Shown here: one piece after another, positions 918 to 36,925 of the stretch
Numbering within the stretch: the stretch's first letter is position 1
Layout of the letters: every line of letters begins with the position of its first letter
Made by a program: the position numbers and the translations under genes
NCBI GenBank assembly: GCA_900696465.1
Contig: CAADGE010000032.1
Coordinates: 1-64,000, forward strand
Reading direction: 5' to 3'
Length of the DNA: 64,000 nucleotides
Source: an uncultured Planctomycetota bacterium
Lineage (GTDB): Bacteria > Planctomycetota > Phycisphaerae > UBA1845 > UTPLA1
Notes under the pieces: generated by a model
Databases searched by the model: none
The model's input: the letters and a program-made list of their open reading frames with translations, nothing else
What the model was told of the DNA's origin: nothing

Positions 918-3482
918 ATGCCAAGTCAACATCGTACATCTGGAACGACAACTGGCTTTATTCTCATTGTCTCCCTGACTATCCTCACAGCACTTCCAGA
1001 CGGTTCGATCGCTGAGTGCGACCCGTTGGGTCTCATCACCTACGACGATTATCTCGTCGACGCCGGCTTTCACTACTGGGAGCCGACGGTGGGAATCGAA
1101 GACTGCGGAAGGTTCATCGTCGCCTACAGGGCACGTGTCGGTTGGTCCGCCGATCTTATTCTCGCCAGGCGGTTCCTCCCTGACGGCAGCCCGTGGGGTA
1201 ATGAGCCCATTTTCATCAGCGAGTTCGACGAACAGTTCACTGCCCTCGGCCAGACGCACTCCCAGCCATCCGTCGCCGTCAGTCGTTCGGGAAACGTCCA
1301 TCTGGCCTGGATCACCGCATGCGGCGAGTGCCGATGGCCCCCCTGTCCTGAGGGTCCCTGTGAACAGGTACCCAATGAAGGAGTATTGTTACAGCAAAGC
1401 TTCTTTTCTATTGACTCCCCGCCTAATCCCGTAGGCATTCCTGTCTCGCCGTCCGACACACGAGTGAACTCGGCGCCGTCCGCAGGTGTTTCGAACGGCG
1501 CGTCTCGTGTCGCATGGCAGAACCACGACACTTTCATGTGTCCGCCCACACCGGACGAAAACGCGGCGCTGCACGGCCCGAACCGCGATGAGGGCGATCC
1601 CGTGGAATCATGTGATTGCTCGGTCCTCGGCTTCGGTTGCAGCCGGGCATGGCAGCCGGCCCTGAGCATGAGGTCCGATGGGTACTACGTGGTAAGCTGG
1701 GCGCAGCCGGAGGAACCAAGCGCTGCAGATACTACGTATGATATCATGCTTCATGCCTTCAGCGCGGGAGGAACGCCGATCGGCGATGCCGTCTTGGTCA
1801 ATGACCCTACAACCGAGCTTTTGCTTTCCGATCAAGTTTCCCCCGCCGTCGCCATGGACGACTTCGGCAATGTCGTTGTCGTCTGGGCGGGGTTCAGTCT
1901 CCAGAACTGTTTCCAGATTGCACATATCTACGCCCGCCGCTTCAAGTTCGACCCCATCGCTGGCCTGCGCGACCCGGACCCGGCCGCCGGCGAGGGGCCG
2001 GCCGGGTCGTTTACCGTCGATACCTACTCACTCAGCGGCCTTTCACCGCACGCGCCGGCGGCGGCGCACCCCTCGGTCGCCCTGACGATGGAGGAGGAGC
2101 ACGCCGGGCGATTCATCGTCGTCTGGAATTCAACGGGCGATGCGGTCGGCGTGGCTTCGCAGATTCAAGGAATTTACTTCGATGCTGACGGCCGACCGAT
2201 GGGAAAAGACTTTCGTGTCAACGTCTCCAACCAGCCGATCGGCGATGCCGGCTCTGGAGTAAGGCGGCTCGCGGAAAGTGGCCGACATACCGTCGTCTAC
2301 GGCGCACAGGGGCAGGCAATGGTGGCCTGGGAGGGTCGGGGAGGACTCCATCAAGGCGGATTCTTTCAAGACAACTACAACGAACTGCGCGTCACCATAC
2401 TTCCGGAGTTCATCAGAGAAAATCAGGAGAACGCTTATCCCTGCAACAAGGGCGACGTGAACCGCGACGGCTTTATCAACGGCCTGGATATCCAGCCGTT
2501 CGTTGACTTCCTGCTCGCGACCAACCCGCCCAAGCAGTGTTTCAGTCTGGTGGAATTGTGTCCGTTCGACCTGAATAACGACGGCGACGTGACCGTCGAA
2601 GATATTCCCTGCTTCGTCGCCACACTGCTGATGGGCTTCCACACTTGCGAACTGCCGCCGTTGGAAATCCAGATCATCGACTGCAACGGCAATGAAGTTC
2701 CGGACGACGAGGACATCGCCAACGAGACGAGCGCCGACCTGAACGAGAACGGTATCCCGGACGAATGCGAGCCGGACTGCAATACGAACGGCGTGCCGGA
2801 TGACTACGACATCCTTACGGAGGCCAGCGCCGACTGCAACCAAAACGGCATCCCCGACGAGTGTGAGTACGACTGCAACGAAAACGGCGTGCCGGACGAC
2901 TGCGACGTGGACCCGAGCGACCCCGACGGCGATGAGTGGGTGAGCCCGGATTGCAACGGGAACGAGTATCCCGACGAGTGCGATCTCAAGCTGGGTCCAC
3001 CGTTTGGGAGGTTCGACTGCAACGAGAACGGCATACCTGACGAGTGCGACCTCGCCGATTGTGACAACGATCCCGCCTGCGACGACTGCAACGAGAACGG
3101 GATTCCCGATGGTTGCGACATCGCCGCCGAGATCAGCGAGGATGTCAACGAGAACGGCATCCCCGACGAGTGCGAGGGCGAGTCGTTCATGATGGGCGAC
3201 GGCGAAGGCGGCGGCGAGTCGGCGACGCAATCGGAGCAAAGCGGAGCTCTGCAGTCCCCTGAAGAAGACGCCGTGGACGAAGTCGACACCGGCGATTCGC
3301 CGGTGTCACAGGAGGACGAATTGCCGCTGCCACATGACGAAGACGCCGCGTGGGAGGCCTTCTACGAGTGGGCGTACGAACAATGCTGGGGCGGCGACTG
3401 CGAGGAATCGACGGCGGAACAGTTCCGCCGCATGATCGACAAGAAGCGCGAACTGGGCCTCCCGCTGGACCGTGACTGGTAA
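918..3482 (+). CDS. Large secreted protein with dockerin-like pair and nine DCNxNGxPDEC repeats
   Basis: This 854-residue exported protein has a signal peptide in its first 30 residues. Residues 40-480 hold repeated beta-propeller-like segments (VAWQ, VSWAQ, VVWAG, VVWNS). A dockerin-like pair of calcium loops (GDVNRDGFING and FDLNNDGDVTVED) lies at about 509-571. About nine tandem units of the type DCNxNGxPDEC follow at 588-755, then an acidic tail rich in Glu and Asp. Such EF-hand-like repeats are common in planctomycete exported proteins and probably bind calcium. ATG 918 is chosen because AAAGGAGA lies 7 bases upstream; an in-frame TTG at 897 is weaker. Its binding target is unknown. It converges on the cytochrome gene at 3538. 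Confidence 0.9.
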   Translation: MPSQHRTSGTTTGFILIVSLTILTALPDGSIAECDPLGLITYDDYLVDAGFHYWEPTVGIEDCGRFIVAYRARVGWSADLILARRFLPDGSPWGNEPIFISEFDEQFTALGQTHSQPSVAVSRSGNVHLAWITACGECRWPPCPEGPCEQVPNEGVLLQQSFFSIDSPPNPVGIPVSPSDTRVNSAPSAGVSNGASRVAWQNHDTFMCPPTPDENAALHGPNRDEGDPVESCDCSVLGFGCSRAWQPALSMRSDGYYVVSWAQPEEPSAADTTYDIMLHAFSAGGTPIGDAVLVNDPTTELLLSDQVSPAVAMDDFGNVVVVWAGFSLQNCFQIAHIYARRFKFDPIAGLRDPDPAAGEGPAGSFTVDTYSLSGLSPHAPAAAHPSVALTMEEEHAGRFIVVWNSTGDAVGVASQIQGIYFDADGRPMGKDFRVNVSNQPIGDAGSGVRRLAESGRHTVVYGAQGQAMVAWEGRGGLHQGGFFQDNYNELRVTILPEFIRENQENAYPCNKGDVNRDGFINGLDIQPFVDFLLATNPPKQCFSLVELCPFDLNNDGDVTVEDIPCFVATLLMGFHTCELPPLEIQIIDCNGNEVPDDEDIANETSADLNENGIPDECEPDCNTNGVPDDYDILTEASADCNQNGIPDECEYDCNENGVPDDCDVDPSDPDGDEWVSPDCNGNEYPDECDLKLGPPFGRFDCNENGIPDECDLADCDNDPACDDCNENGIPDGCDIAAEISEDVNENGIPDECEGESFMMGDGEGGGESATQSEQSGALQSPEEDAVDEVDTGDSPVSQEDELPLPHDEDAAWEAFYEWAYEQCWGGDCEESTAEQFRRMIDKKRELGLPLDRDW

Positions 3483-16175: not shown

Positions 16176-16809
16176 CCTGTCGACCCGGTCAGCGCCAGAT
16201 CATATATGCACGTAGGTTTCCCGGCACGCCGACCCGGAGGCGCTCGCAGGCGACTGCCCGGCATGCCCGAACACTGGCCTGTTACAGACCGGCAAACTGC
16301 GTGCCAGAATGAGAATCCTTCGGAGTTATATGCGAGGTCGTGCCGCAAAATGTCGTTTTAACGTATTGCACGATGGCTGTAACGAAGTATTTCAGAGCAA
16401 TCTCAACCGACGTATCTGCGGCCCTTTAGCGGCAGGATCGGCTGATTCGGTTTCACACGCCAGGCGGTGGCCTTCTCTCCGTAGCCCCGTCCCGGTCCGG
16501 CAGCCCGTAATTCGAATCCCATGGCTGCGTCACGGCCTTCATGCGACCACCGCGGATGCAATCACAATCTGCGAAGTCTTTCAATCGCATGATAGATACG
16601 CTGACCAGCTGTGTTCGATCTTCATTACTATCGCTTCGTCCACGCCACCCACTCCACGCGAGGCCATCGGGCTGACATCCGACGAGAAATCTGATATCCT
16701 GTATCTCTATCGACGACCGCCGTCTGGCACCCGTCGCTCTGGAAGCCGATCGCTGCAACCGTCGGGCGCATATCGCGACCACGCAGCCGGGCTCGTATCG
16801 GGTTCGTTT
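16176..16809. other. Long intergenic region between resB and the kinase gene
   Basis: These 634 bases must hold the divergent promoters of resB and the kinase. The kinase frame is open through it from 16309, but the peptide there is rich in Arg, Ser and Pro, has no recognisable domain and no second ATG, so I treat it as noncoding. No clear hairpins, tRNA or consensus promoter could be identified by eye. Confidence 0.5.
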
Positions 16810-19059
16810 GTGCCTGAACAGCAATCAACACCGATTGAAACGCGCGAGGTGCGCATCGGCCGGATCCTGTCCGAGCTGCACGACCGCTGCGCTCGAGGAG
16901 AACCCATCGACCATGACCAGATCGCCGCGAAACATCCCGACATTGCGGGCGAGCTGAAGCACCACTTCGCCACGCTCGGGAATCTCCACTGGCAGGATCA
17001 GACCATCGAAGGACTCGTGCGTCAGGGTCTGCTTGCGCCGTCCGCCGATTCCGAGTACCGCGCCGAGCTTGGACCCTACCGCATCATCGAATACTTGGGC
17101 CGCGGCGGCATGGGAATCGTCCTCAAGGCCTACGAACCTGCGCTGCGCCGATTCGTCGCGCTCAAGCTGCTCCGGCCCGAGATGACCGAAGATGCCGTGG
17201 CGCTGGCACGCTTTCAGCGGGAGGCCCAGGCCGCCGCAGGACTGCATCATCCGAACATCCTGACGATCCACGCCGTCGGCCAGCACAACGGTGTTCATTT
17301 CATCTCCATGGAGCATATCGACGGCCCGACCCTGGCGGACATGATCCGTGAGCAGGGGCCCTTGCCGGCGGACGCCATCCGTAAGCTGACGGAACAAATC
17401 CTTTGCGGCCTGGCTGCCGCGCACGAGGCCGGGCTGATCCATCGTGATATCAAGCCCGCGAACCTGTTGCTCGATAAGCCGGCGGGTAATCACGACGAAG
17501 GAGGCGGCATGCTCAAAATCGCCGACTTCGGCCTCGCGCGCGTGCTCTCGTCGCAGACCAAGCTTACCCTGCCGGAGCAATCCTTCGGCACGCCGCAATA
17601 CATGAGCCCCGAGCAGGCGCGTGGCGATGAGGACATCGACCATCGCACCGACCTCTACTCGGCCGGCGTCGTGCTCTACGAAATGCTGACCGGTCGTGTG
17701 CCGTTTCGATCCGAGACGCCGACCGCAGTCATTCATCAAATCCTTAGCAACGATCCCCCCGAACCGACTCTACAAGGCAAGACCTGCGACCCTGCACTGG
17801 CCAGCATCGCGATGCGTCTCTTGGCCAAACGGCGCGAGGACCGCTTCACGACCGCGGCAGAGGTGCTCGCGGCCCTGCGATCCGGTCGGCGCGTGGCATC
17901 CTACGAGCGAAGCCGACGCCGGAGGCGGTTCGCAGGACGCGCGGTCCTTCTGATCGCGGCCATCACCGGAATCGTGTGGCTCTTCTCAGGCCTGGGCAGC
18001 GCGTCTGCACCGATTACGGCCGCCAAGGGAATCGACAATCTTGTGGTTGTGCAGCGGGGCACAAGCTCGCAGTGGCAACCGCTCTATCGATTCAATGAGC
18101 CGAACCACGTCAAGTCCGCCGTTGCCGTCGAACTTGGAGCGACGGGCAAGACCCTTGTCGTCGCCGCGCCGGAGATTCCGCCCGAAGCGCACAAGACCAT
18201 CCTCGCATTTGATGACGACGGGAAGGAGATTTGGGACATGGACCTGTCTTCGGACCTGAACTGGCCCGACTGCGACCTCTCGCGCGGCTGGCGCTGCGAT
18301 GGTCTGATGGCCGCCGATCTGGACGGCCTGCCGGGCGACGAGGTCATTGCCATTGCCAGCGACATCGGGGAATACCCTTCGAGGTTCAGCATCATTGATC
18401 CCGTGGCGCGCACGATTCGAGCGACACTTTGGCACCAGGGCGATCCCCATTGGTCGGACGATAACGTGCATAAAACCATCTGGCTGGAGCGAGACTTCTT
18501 CGGCCCCGGCCACCATGCGATCGTCGCCAAAGGAGTCAATAACAAGCTGGACGGATTCTACGAGCCGCGAGAGACGGACCCGCCGCCGCTGACGAAGTGG
18601 GACATCGTGCCTGACATGATGATCATCGACCCGCGAAAGATGCTCGAAGAAGGCGAGGGCATCGGTCCGCCGTTCTCGCCGCGCGTGCCGTTCAAGCCGT
18701 CGCGGGCGATTCACGCCTATGCCTTCCTCGACCTGTCGACGACGGATGACAACACTTTTGTCAATGATGCCGATGATGTCCGGCGCACGCTGGCAGCGCC
18801 CCGGCTCGACGATGTCGGCTGCATCAATCAACTGGCCCGCTCCTCCGAGAAAGTCACCGACGGGACCGGCCCGTGGTTTATTCTTGACCTCAAGCACTCG
18901 GACAAGCAATGGGGCGCCTTCGTCACCGTGGACCGCGACCTGCAAATCGTCCGCATCCATAAGATGCCCCACGACCCGGCCCCCAAGCCCGATTCCTTCT
19001 GGCGGGAGAAGTGGAAGGTGCTTGTCAGCGAGGATCACGTTGTTTCTCCGACACCTTAA
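16810..19059 (+). CDS. Transmembrane Ser/Thr protein kinase (PknB-like) with extracytoplasmic C-domain
   Basis: The protein has about 749 residues. A helical N-domain (1-85) is followed by a Hanks-type kinase domain (about 88-350) with the glycine loop LGRGGMGIV, VALK lysine, catalytic HRDIKPAN (about residue 210), DFG (about 238) and GTPQYMSPEQARG. A single membrane helix lies at about 375-395. The C-terminal 350 residues are extracytoplasmic, with FG-GAP/VCBS-like hints (LIVVAAPE, DLDGLPGDEVIAIAS), so this may be a sensor. GTG 16810 is my start because the family N-domain begins soon after it, but no good Shine-Dalgarno is seen and the frame is open upstream. The stop codon TAA at 19057-19059 overlaps the left end of a palindromic element. 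Confidence 0.88.
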   Translation: MPEQQSTPIETREVRIGRILSELHDRCARGEPIDHDQIAAKHPDIAGELKHHFATLGNLHWQDQTIEGLVRQGLLAPSADSEYRAELGPYRIIEYLGRGGMGIVLKAYEPALRRFVALKLLRPEMTEDAVALARFQREAQAAAGLHHPNILTIHAVGQHNGVHFISMEHIDGPTLADMIREQGPLPADAIRKLTEQILCGLAAAHEAGLIHRDIKPANLLLDKPAGNHDEGGGMLKIADFGLARVLSSQTKLTLPEQSFGTPQYMSPEQARGDEDIDHRTDLYSAGVVLYEMLTGRVPFRSETPTAVIHQILSNDPPEPTLQGKTCDPALASIAMRLLAKRREDRFTTAAEVLAALRSGRRVASYERSRRRRRFAGRAVLLIAAITGIVWLFSGLGSASAPITAAKGIDNLVVVQRGTSSQWQPLYRFNEPNHVKSAVAVELGATGKTLVVAAPEIPPEAHKTILAFDDDGKEIWDMDLSSDLNWPDCDLSRGWRCDGLMAADLDGLPGDEVIAIASDIGEYPSRFSIIDPVARTIRATLWHQGDPHWSDDNVHKTIWLERDFFGPGHHAIVAKGVNNKLDGFYEPRETDPPPLTKWDIVPDMMIIDPRKMLEEGEGIGPPFSPRVPFKPSRAIHAYAFLDLSTTDDNTFVNDADDVRRTLAAPRLDDVGCINQLARSSEKVTDGTGPWFILDLKHSDKQWGAFVTVDRDLQIVRIHKMPHDPAPKPDSFWREKWKVLVSEDHVVSPTP

Positions 19060-19167
19060 GCCCACGGAACTCGGTCCGGTCTCATGGGGAGGAGTAAACC
19101 CACTTGCATGGATGATCTCCGGCGCGGGGCAGCGCTGTCGAATCAATGGACCGATTTCCGTGGGCTT
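19058..19167. repeat. 110-bp palindromic element, copy 1
   Basis: The element begins AAGCCCACGGAACTCGGTCC and ends in its near-perfect reverse complement (GGACCGATTTCCGTGGGCTT), giving terminal inverted repeats of about 20 bp with one mismatch. Copy 3 at 19884 matches it at all but three of 110 positions. It sits exactly between two convergent genes: its left end contributes to the kinase TAA and its right end (GGGCTTA) contributes to the TAA of the transposase on the minus strand. Confidence 0.93.
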
Positions 19168-19849
19168 ATTGCGGCCGATCCCGAAACGTCCACACCGCGG
19201 CACCGCGCTGCGCGTGTTCGACGATGTACTGGTACACGTTCAGTTGATGGGCGCGATCCTTCACGGACAAGGCGCGGCAGCGCTTGGCCCAGATGCCTCC
19301 GGCTCCCTTTTCGCAGTGCCCCGCCTTCGACAATGCAAGGGCGCTTTCCTTCTTTGCGACACCGACGAGATGGCGAATGACGGCCAGGATGTCGTTGCCG
19401 TCCTTGCGCGTCGGCGCATTCAAGCCCACGGAACTCGGCCCTCGGCCTTGAACCTTTTCCGGCGTTGCGCCGATTACCGAACCTGAAGAAATGTTTCCGC
19501 CCCGATGGACGAGGCCGAATTCCGTGGGCTTGGGGAATCGAGCCAGGATGTGATAGTGATGATCGTCCACGCACAGGGCGATCACCTCGACGCCCCGCCG
19601 AGAGAGAGATTCAACCATAACGTGACAGGCAATGCGCCGTGCGGCAGCATTGAGGCGGATCGGCGATCGCCTCATAAGCGATTGAGACGAGGTGCGAAGC
19701 CGGTCGTACTTTCCCGGTGGGGGTGGACACTTGTAGTCTCCTTCGACGTGCTCTCGGTGATGGCGTGCCCGCCAGCCGCGCGGGTCGCCGCGTAGCCAAG
19801 TCCCATAGGTGTTACCGTTGACGTGGAACCACCCGCTCCATGCGCGCAT
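19166..19849 (-). CDS. RAYT/IS200-like HUH (Y1) transposase carrying an in-frame palindromic insertion
   Basis: This 227-residue protein resembles REP-associated tyrosine transposases (Y1_Tnp). The N-terminus contains WFHVNGNTYGTWLRGDPRGW, followed by RARHHREHVEGDYK, as I recall from planctomycete members. The metal-binding HUH motif is HHYHIL (within VDDHHYHILARF), and the later GVAKKESALALSKAG segment is also family-like. Between ARFP and the APTRKDG segment the sequence is interrupted by a 37-residue insert (KPTEFG ... GPSSVGL) encoded exactly by the 110-bp element at 19422-19531. The frame stays open. Copies of the same element lie just past both ends of the gene. ATG 19849 gives the family N-terminus. 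Whether the enzyme is active with the insert is unknown; I did not identify the catalytic Tyr with certainty. Confidence 0.82.
   Translation of the reverse strand: MRAWSGWFHVNGNTYGTWLRGDPRGWRARHHREHVEGDYKCPPPPGKYDRLRTSSQSLMRRSPIRLNAAARRIACHVMVESLSRRGVEVIALCVDDHHYHILARFPKPTEFGLVHRGGNISSGSVIGATPEKVQGRGPSSVGLNAPTRKDGNDILAVIRHLVGVAKKESALALSKAGHCEKGAGGIWAKRCRALSVKDRAHQLNVYQYIVEHAQRGAAVWTFRDRPQ
19422..19531. repeat. 110-bp palindromic element, copy 2, inside the transposase coding sequence
   Basis: It has the same length (110 bp) and the same ends as copies 1 and 3 (AAGCCCACGGAACTCGG on the left, CCGAATTCCGTGGGCTT on the right), but the interior is strongly diverged. Its reverse complement aligns loosely with copy 1 (shared GGGG..GGA and CGGCGC patches), so it seems inserted in the opposite orientation. 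Translated with the transposase it encodes KPTEFG at one end and GPSSVGL at the other. Copies 1 and 3 read on the same strand give KPTE.G and GPSSVGL, also 37 residues without a stop. Confidence 0.9.
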
Positions 19850-19883
19850 GAGAGGAATTGTGGGTCATATGAGCGCCGCGTTC

Positions 19884-19993
19884 AAGCCTACGGAACTCGG
19901 TCCGGTCTCATGGGGAGGAGTAAACCCACTTGCATGGATGATCTCCGGCGCGGGGCAGCGCTGTCGAATCAATGGACCGCGTTCCGTGGGCTT
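19884..19993. repeat. 110-bp palindromic element, copy 3
   Basis: This copy is 35 bp upstream of the transposase start. It differs from copy 1 at three positions: AAGCCT for AAGCCC near the left end, and CG for GA near the right end. Copies 1 and 3 are in direct orientation and bracket the transposase gene, the layout expected for REP-type elements with their RAYT. The flank TTC before and GGGG after are shared with copy 2. Confidence 0.93.
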
Positions 19994-28564: not shown

Positions 28565-28790
28565 TCACGGATCAAGAATTGCCGTCGGCGTCTCATTCAG
28601 CGCCAGCCGTCGATAGCTGACCGGTGTATTCTGCAGCGTGCCGGTGAGCGTCTGGAAATCGTTTGACATGGTCGCGTTGGTAAAGCCCACGGGAATGCCC
28701 AGCGTCGTCGTCTCCCAGATGAACAGACTGCCGTTGCGCGACGGTTCCTGCACTGTCTGCCGGAAACTCCGCTGACCAACCACCCCGCAA
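28565..28790 (-). pseudogene. Truncated duplicate of the 3' end of the gene at 30852-31640
   Basis: The frame encodes about 72 residues that match the C-terminus of the 262-residue protein at 30852-31640: ETTTLGIPVGFTNATMSNDF, SYRRLALNETPTAILDP and a looser match upstream (VGQRSFRQTVQEPSRNG against PGQQIHQQSVTEPTRIG). Homology stops near 28790 and an in-frame stop (TAG) lies at about 28804. There is no signal peptide or plausible start, so this is a 5'-truncated remnant. Both copies have the same orientation and bracket about 2 kb. Confidence 0.85.
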
Positions 28791-29166
28791 TTCCAGCCCC
28801 TCTAGAACGACTTGCGAGTGACAAACTTTTCAGGCGTGCGCGCCCCAGTTTTTCGTTTCCAACGCATCGCGCGAATCGTGGGCAAGAAATTCCTCAGTAT
28901 GCGAGGACGAATCTGCACTTGGAGAAAATCGCACCGCCGCAAATTGCCCACGTACACGGGTAAAACCGCCGTTGGGGGCCCACCAGCTTCCTTTAATTCA
29001 AGAGCGATTGGCACGTAAAATGCCACCTATTCAGCGCCGCATGCGCGGGCCTGGCGCGTGGCCAAGGCGGCAGCAGCCGCCTATTCCTCGGAATCGACAC
29101 ATCGCGGTGCGGAAGCATAGCAACCAGCGTAAAAAACGCTCGGGCACACTCCGGAAAGGGCTAAAC
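28791..29166. other. Intergenic region between gene remnant and lipoprotein gene
   Basis: Short open frames exist on both strands (minus 28802-29026, plus 28812-29018), but they overlap each other, have no family match I recognise and no good ribosome site. I see no RNA gene. The GAAAGGG near the right end belongs to the next gene as its ribosome binding site. Confidence 0.5.
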
Positions 29167-30851: not shown

Positions 30852-31640
30852 CTACGGATCAAGAATCGCCGTCGGTGTTTCATTCAGCGCCAGCCGTCGA
30901 TAACTCACCGGTGTTGCCTGTAGCGTACCGTTAAGGTTCTGGAAGTCGTTCGACATCGTTGCGTTGGTAAAGCCCACGGGAATGCCCAGCGTCGTCGTCT
31001 CCCAGTTAAACTGATTACCGATCCGCGTCGGCTCCGTGACGGATTGCTGATGAATCTGCTGGCCGGGCACGCCGCGAATCGGCCGGCCGTTGTATGAAAT
31101 GTAGAAGTTCCCGTCTCCGGCAATTGTGCGGTCCACGAGAATCGCCCCGATGATCTCGCCGCTGTTGCCGAATCGCAGGATCGTGTCGCCGAAGAAGCTG
31201 CTCGTCACCCGCCAGACACCCGCCAGCGCCGCCGCCGTCGTATCCGACTGCATCACCACTTGCACATTCTGCGTCACCGGATGACAACCGGCATCATCAA
31301 TTGGCACGTTCACCGATAGCGTCTGCGGCGCGAAGCCCAGCGCCTGCACATTGATGTCGAACTTCCCGACCACTTCATACGTCAGCACCATGGCACCGCA
31401 GCCGCCCGTGCAGCCGCCCTGCTGGATGGCCCCGTTGTTGACACGGTAGCTCACAATCGCCGACGGCACGACCGCCCCCTGCGTGTCGCGGATGTTCAGG
31501 ATCACCGAGGCCACCGCGATCATCGTGCAGACGCGGCCGCCCGGCGGAAAGTTGATGTTCGAGCAATCGCCGCTCATGGCCGTGGCAAAGGGCAGGGACG
31601 CAGCCAGTAAACACGCCTTGATTCGTCGCATGGGTTTCAT
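30852..31640 (-). CDS. Exported protein with carboxypeptidase-regulatory-like beta-sandwich
   Basis: The 262-residue protein has a signal peptide (about 1-21, ending ATAMSG). A C-containing segment (GDCSNINFPPGGRVC) resembles a lipoprotein-like or disulfide N-terminus. Residues about 40-115 (ASVILNIRDTQGAVVPSAIV...YEVVGKFDINVQALGF) look like a bacterial Ig/carboxypeptidase regulatory domain. The C-terminal half begins LAGVWRVTSSFFGDTILRF, a lipocalin-like or beta-barrel start. The C-terminal third is duplicated at 28565-28790. The start ATG 31640 (MKPMRR) fits the signal peptide. Function unknown. Confidence 0.8.
   Translation of the reverse strand: MKPMRRIKACLLAASLPFATAMSGDCSNINFPPGGRVCTMIAVASVILNIRDTQGAVVPSAIVSYRVNNGAIQQGGCTGGCGAMVLTYEVVGKFDINVQALGFAPQTLSVNVPIDDAGCHPVTQNVQVVMQSDTTAAALAGVWRVTSSFFGDTILRFGNSGEIIGAILVDRTIAGDGNFYISYNGRPIRGVPGQQIHQQSVTEPTRIGNQFNWETTTLGIPVGFTNATMSNDFQNLNGTLQATPVSYRRLALNETPTAILDP

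Positions 31641-32821: not shown

Positions 32822-36925
<4,104 letters not shown>

Follow-up and report, generated by a model that had tools for sequence, protein, structure and literature searches.

REP (repetitive extragenic palindrome) and REPIN elements are widespread in bacteria, and the mode by which the REP-associated tyrosine transposases (RAYTs) spread these elements is unsettled. A REPIN consists of two inverted REPs separated by a highly diverse spacer (PMC8049555, PMC3116915); spacings of 71 and 110 bp have been described in P. fluorescens SBW25 (PMC3116915, PMC8049555), and it is the length and pairing of REPINs, rather than the sequence of the spacer, which appear to be kept (PMC3116915). 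Here we describe a locus in a 64,000-nucleotide stretch of DNA from an uncultured Planctomycetota bacterium (contig CAADGE010000032.1, positions 1 to 64,000; hereafter the window), in which a RAYT-like HUH transposase gene is flanked by two palindromic elements of 110 bp and carries a third in frame within its own coding sequence, as an initial annotation of the window had proposed. Because elements with inverted ends and a diverse spacer, located next to a RAYT, match the definition of a REPIN, the locus is likely to be a REPtron with an in-gene copy: a RAYT-type HUH transposase with its cognate palindromes, one of which lies in a loop of the enzyme, in a slot that, judging from related sequences, has been emptied and refilled.

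An internal REP is not without precedent. Quentin et al. (2018; PMC6006769) describe in-frame REPs located between the HuH and Y motifs, which they present as unique to subclass 2.4 of the TnpAY1 transposases, with some in subclass 2.8. The window locus resembles subclass 2.4, as described there, in that REPs flank the gene and lie in frame inside it, with a variable insertion between β3 and αC. In contrast to subclass 2.4, which is abundant in Cyanobacteria and Bacteroidetes and carries the motifs WQ and YIxNNP, the window family was found mostly in one planctomycete class (11 of the 13 genomes matched in a search of the phylum, the other two lying elsewhere in the phylum), has W followed by A or G in most members and Y-I-x-x-H at the tyrosine, and is accompanied by AAGCCC...GGGCTT palindromes; the window insert, at 110 bp, is moreover of REPIN size. 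Class 2 as a whole has the signature Y---NP and class 3 the signature Y----Q (both as given in the part of PMC6006769 available to us), and neither was seen in the window family: Y-I-x-x-H was present in all 17 aligned rows, and a rough regular-expression count placed histidine four residues after the tyrosine in 82 of 97 sequences (14 more being unscored) and, after the tryptophan, A or G in 71 of 97 and Q in 7. The family shares with class 3 its occurrence in Planctomycetes, an extended N-terminal conservation and atypical flanking structures; the class 3 HuH motif, however, is NHVH (PMC6006769), whereas HxH is variable in the window family. Because its motif fits neither signature, the family was filed in neither class.

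Further parallels were found in PMC3733652, which reports intragenic REPs, planctomycete REP families and TIRtrons (RAYT-like genes with long inverted flanks), and the tables of which may list kin of the window's repeats. TIRtrons and TIRYTs resemble the window locus in combining RAYT-like genes with long inverted or self-complementary flanks, some of which overlap the gene ends; they differ in that the portion of the source at hand mentions no in-gene copy, and in that the ends of the window elements recur as short REPs in relatives. The comparison with Rickettsia palindromic elements drawn in the initial annotation stands as far as in-frame palindromes in protein genes are concerned, although those elements lie in various genes and the window copy in its cognate transposase. 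The likeness to the Rickettsia elements, which are mentioned also in PMC3733652, is looser than that to REP/REPIN-RAYT systems, in-frame REPs in tnpA-REP genes having already been published (PMC6006769). Among the literature listings examined, no title or abstract dealt with the window family. An in-frame REP in a cognate tnpA-REP gene is thus already known from subclass 2.4 and some of 2.8; what is new is that such insertion extends to a family outside the class signatures given in PMC6006769.

The transposase and its three elements

The three elements are each exactly 110 bp long, and their inverted ends of about 20 bp, which are complementary at 18-19 of 20 positions, paired with one another when a single strand was folded with RNA parameters. 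Copies 1 and 3 are identical at all but 3 of their 110 positions. No similarity was detected between the 70-bp middles of copies 1 and 2, whichever way round they were compared (p = 0.65 and 0.38; 500 shuffles), and a common origin of the two spacers was rejected on this ground; the equal lengths of copies 1 and 2 are compatible with REPINs. The elements therefore have the anatomy of a REPIN, with inverted conserved ends, a diverse spacer and the capacity to form a hairpin, and they share with the REPIN-RAYT systems of Bertels and Rainey (2011; PMC3116915) a spacing found there (71 or 110 bp) and clustering beside the cognate RAYT. In that account, however, REPINs were studied extragenically and in hundreds of copies, whereas the window holds three, one of them within the RAYT coding sequence.

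The transposase open reading frame (ORF) is open over its 227 codons, of which 107-143 are supplied by copy 2 with the frame intact, the other two copies bracketing the gene; in these respects the initial annotation was exact. Its observation that copies 1 and 3 are likewise open for 37 residues is true but unremarkable, since stop codons are absent from 9 of the 18 frames that the three copies offer, and the notion that the element is built to be translated was rejected because half of all frames are open anyway. Both ends of copy 1 provide the 'AA' of a TAA stop codon, one for the transposase ORF on the minus strand and the other for a protein-kinase-like ORF on the plus strand (16309-19059), which uses the first two bases of the copy; copy 1 may have set the end of the kinase-like ORF.

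HxH and Y-I-x-x-H were invariant in the 17-row alignment of relatives. Tyr208 is presumably the catalytic residue, an assignment made by analogy with IS608 and TnpA-REP. When the relatives were scanned singly at E up to 0.1, Y1_Tnp was matched by 8 of 17 and REP_Tyr_transpos by 11 of 17; the PHROGs collection gave no match. An AlphaFold2 model built on a two-row alignment was of low confidence (mean pLDDT, the predicted local distance difference test, 60.8), with residues 110-147, between the HUH strand (98-104) and a helix (148-175), below 50, as were residues 1-5, 16-43, 54-63 and 181-185. Foldseek, supplied with this model, found no match at E <= 0.001; its top 16 hits (E 1.7e-3 to 5.8e-3, probability 0.99-1.0) were IS608 and ISDra2 and, in 16th place, the E. 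coli TnpA-REP structure 4er8. The motifs and this ranking together point to a core of the Y1 type, with an HUH motif and a single catalytic tyrosine. A second, distant Y1-like stretch (L139, G000:C29:66291-66593; loci, genomes and contigs are designated L, G and C), containing TYGTWLPGD, lies in an 855-codon open frame of the same genome.

Table 1. Features of the transposase locus, with positions in the window
Feature	Position	Strand	Basis or remark
HUH/Y1 (TnpA-REP/RAYT-like) transposase, 227 aa	19166-19849	minus	weak profile matches, relatives' matches, Foldseek, invariant motifs
HUH motif H98-Y99-H100	19550-19558	minus	H98 and H100 invariant in 17-row alignment
Presumed catalytic Tyr208 of Y-I-x-x-H	19226-19228	minus	Y208, I209 and H212 invariant in 17-row alignment
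37-residue in-frame insert, codons 107-143 (K107 to L143)	19421-19531	minus	ORF translation, AlphaFold2 low pLDDT
Copy 1, 110-bp REPIN-like palindromic element	19058-19167	.	downstream of transposase gene, separating two convergent ORFs
Copy 2, 110-bp element, ends as copy 1, other 70-bp spacer	19422-19531	minus	within transposase coding sequence
Copy 3, 110-bp element	19884-19993	.	upstream of transposase gene; 3 differences from copy 1

The internal slot in related transposases

Homologues were sought in four sets of genomes, drawn from the phylum (392), the class (397) and the families to which two members belong (51 and 6), and matches were found in 13, 113, 26 and 6 genomes, respectively, under unlike E cut-offs and in overlapping sets. 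Alignments spanning at least 120 model positions were kept, and a set of 114 genes was assembled from cores of at least 120 aa in which HxH was found, the truncated L221 being left out; the counts that follow hinge on the hairpin criterion and on which matches were retrieved, weak matches of the class search lying mostly outside the set. With an arm of at least 10 and a loop of at most 12, 16 internal hairpins were detected in 15 of the 114 genes, all 16 of them 13-57 residues past HxH and none elsewhere in these genes; codon-shuffled genes gave a count of 9/575. Three internal palindromes stand outside the 16, namely the 110-bp copy of the window (its loop being too long), that of L056 (an arm of 9) and that of L216 (one mismatch). 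The named homologue L034, from a Phycisphaerales metagenome-assembled genome (49% identity), carries a different perfect hairpin in the same place and in frame. A flanking hairpin of any sequence was present at 42 of the 114 genes, on both sides at 17, and the window gene is likewise flanked by REP-like palindromes.

The 37 residues are not native to all homologous transposases, since insert-free homologues exist, and on this point the initial annotation had read them rightly as an insertion. The stretch from HxH to the helix measures 14 or 16 residues in most insert-free members and 62 in the window, which therefore has some 46-48 extra codons, not 37. Loops with a hairpin span 28-62 residues (84 in L074), and one hairpin-free clade has a stretch of 33; in this survey the cut point was not found in 8 rows and was mis-set in some, L062, L138, L086 and L083 among them. 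No relative offered an insert-free slot aligning base for base with the window. In L211 (G757, near match 1501-1836), the loop past HxH contains two hairpins that are unlike each other, together with a GGLSD peptide that is repeated, the position of the hairpins in the loop being inferred from the protein; the loop perhaps holds several insertions in one slot. With regard to the size of the elements, Quentin et al. suggest central deletion as a route to 'double foot' REPs (PMC6006769), and the hairpins of 27-32 nt in the relatives could, by analogy, be doublets after such a deletion.

The internal palindromes differ from genome to genome and usually match their own flanks. At 12 of the 13 loci tested, no more than one mismatch (0-1) separated the internal arm from its own flanking palindrome in the 7 bases after GCCC, a match equalled by none of 20000 permutations among loci, although related loci are not independent; the test included L221 and the window and excluded L074 and L211 (unlike hairpins), loci lacking flank hairpins, and L056. 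A single palindrome lies to the left, inside and to the right of L213, and the same holds for L199, in which the internal copy is off by an outer base. L056 has an identical 27-mer upstream, inside and downstream amid unlike surroundings. Among seven internal palindromes of 27 nt, four stem pairs were altered on both sides, with a covariation score of 0.377 versus 0.093 in shuffled sequences (0/500 as high).

The slot also varies in phase and occupancy. The internal palindrome is present in two reading phases; in L215 another REP occupies the slot in another phase where the sister clade has the KPT type, and the upstream flank of L215 is that same REP. L224 has no insert, and its sister L056 has one. 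In one starred clade the internal palindrome is kept in 7 of 8 rows, L224 being without it; L216 has a mismatched copy. Trees of 47 and 45 rows were drawn from the closer part of the family; in the latter, starred branches force at least 3 changes for each of the two phases. Since the internal palindrome usually matches its own flanks, differs between genomes and occurs in two phases, the cognate REP seems to have entered or re-entered the slot on repeated occasions.

The initial annotation had also raised the question of a common insertion target. Base counts of 41 elements, inspected by eye, revealed no target motif apart from the palindrome itself continuing outward for about one base; however, in L123 (G005:C38:70272-70860), from the same family, an internal 28-nt REP lies directly past FP, with the junction TTCCCC|AAGCCCACGGA, as does the 110-bp copy of the window. 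The reading frame of L123 is broken earlier than the REP, by a pseudogene mutation or an assembly error.

Origin of the internal palindrome

We reasoned that the REPtron would operate as follows. Folded into a single-stranded hairpin, the palindrome would be recognised by the transposase and moved or copied by it, mostly near the transposase gene; the window elements, of REPIN size with two inverted ends of about 20 nt and a spacer of about 70 nt, and the 27-32-nt hairpins of most relatives that have such elements, would be alternative substrates of this kind. One copy would have entered the loop between β3 and αC of the enzyme itself, where frame-keeping insertions may survive because the loop appears exposed and disordered, and the slot would be filled, emptied and refilled over time, usually with the REP type of the flanks. 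By inference, it is the transposase itself that copies or exchanges the palindromes, and it remains active despite the insert.

Several results weigh against this reading. The window protein scored 19.2 bits against Pfam Y1_Tnp (curated cut-off 23) and 20.9 bits against NCBIfam REP_Tyr_transpos (curated cut-off 80). The internal arm of L201 is unlike its own flank, in up to 3 of 33 other loci the fit to an internal arm equals that of its own flank, and the 13 loci tested include related ones that are not independent. Four both-sided pair changes were also reached in 40 of 500 shuffles, and the covariation is partly built in because the palindromes were picked for pairing. No hairpin was found in the long-loop members L054, L055, L061, L063 and L084, nor in L066 of the same genus. 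In the 47-row tree 1 change is all that the starred branches require, and the trees cannot separate gain from loss. No empty site came to light; in 16 other family genomes the kinase-like neighbour had at best partial matches (in G007, 40-44% over the C-terminal part), the surroundings of which were unexamined. The 110-bp element was found in the window genome at the transposase locus only, and no movement of the element was observed.

A somewhat unlikely alternative is that REPs land randomly near the gene, that only this loop tolerates them, and that gene conversion or recombination between neighbouring copies, not the transposase, homogenises them. Every internal copy found lies in one loop that is predicted to be disordered, and the existence of a mismatched copy and of an emptied slot would be expected under this account; yet a hairpin of 27-32 nt offers little length for ordinary gene conversion, the slot of L215 shows a switch of both REP type and phase, and the identical 27-mers at L056, which lie amid unlike surroundings, make the account less likely.

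It is also conceivable, if quite improbable, that the internal REP is a kept cis-element, such that the transposase, by binding to the hairpin in the gene or mRNA that encodes it, limits its own synthesis, the peptide being tolerated for the sake of this useful control. The match of internal palindrome to flanks across deep protein divergence, and its retention throughout most of the starred clade, would favour such a function, but a hairpin by the strict criterion occurs in only 15 of 114 genes, the same clade includes the palindrome-free L224, the copy in L216 is mismatched, and re-copying by the enzyme would give the same pattern with no function needed. This account is compatible with the REPtron, so that the probabilities of the two overlap. 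Bolder, and in our estimate doubtful, is the proposal that the internal palindrome is a selected self-recognition site, read at both borders and in the enzyme's own gene, for expression feedback or for a joint swap of specificity and target; a shift in REP preference would then see the three copies exchanged together, with the encoded peptide as the price. A stand-alone miniature inverted-repeat transposable element (MITE), unrelated to the transposase and at the locus by chance, would suit the three copies and the MITE-like 110 bp with inverted ends, but is highly improbable because internal and flanking palindromes are cognate, and because in many genera homologous transposases come with palindromes of the same end motif, which follow them from locus to locus.

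If the REPtron reading is adopted, the family supplies natural triplets (left, inside and right) in which the internal copy is bound to the reading frame and usually matches the flanks; the co-evolution of enzyme and target is therefore testable.

Copies elsewhere and neighbouring features

In order to place the element in its own genome, the assembly (4.14 Mb, 48 contigs, 97% complete) was searched for paired ends; no copies beyond the three were found, and a reversed control gave 0. Being known at one locus only, the 110-bp form therefore does not appear to be a dispersed REPIN population. A loose search for single ends (17 bases, at most 3 mismatches) gave 41 matches, 6 of which are the ends of the three copies (0-1 mismatch) and 35 of which lie elsewhere (2-3 mismatches); since the control gave only 7, diverged single ends may be present elsewhere in this genome. 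Exact ends retrieved the 110-bp form from 0 of 16 other family genomes. A looser search matched 3 of 397 class genomes, including its own, and the control matched one; the matches in G693 and G542 appear by eye to be unrelated, the former showing an unlike pair and the latter half-sites in an array. The latter (L230, G542:C197:35426-35537) resembles a bacterial interspersed mosaic element (BIME) in being an array of AAGCCCACGG half-sites.

The expectation that the repeat would recur beyond the locus thus held for a short form but not for the 110-bp form: the window genome has 5 further sites with the pattern AAGCCCA-N6-18-TGGGCTT, some of them not good palindromes, and searches of 33 other genomes gave 0-102 sites per genome (control, 0-2), the pattern being multi-copy in many. 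The genomes are mostly drafts, and contig breaks may conceal copies. G258 has 63 matches to the short pattern; among the 25 matches listed, 21 in 20 regions were taken for study, and the remaining 4 lie at or near the transposase locus. Long frames cross several of the G258 REPs. A Pfam domain was detected in 3 of 10 such frames scanned, always starting past the REP, and domains on both sides of a REP in 0 of the 10. At L140, in the same genome, the downstream REP (oriented, about 3385-3399) provides the final residues of the transposase ORF (KKPTP) and its stop codon.

Three further repeats were noted in the window. A 227-bp duplication (28567-28793 and 30854-31080; 80% identical, 2.3 kb apart) contains in each duplicate AAGCCCACGGGA, one mismatch from the end of the element. 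Long GCC-rich low-complexity repeats occupy 34631-36052. The first 105 positions, at the start of contig C32, are a tandem array of the 7-mer CCAAGCC, perhaps reflecting an assembly break in a simple repeat.

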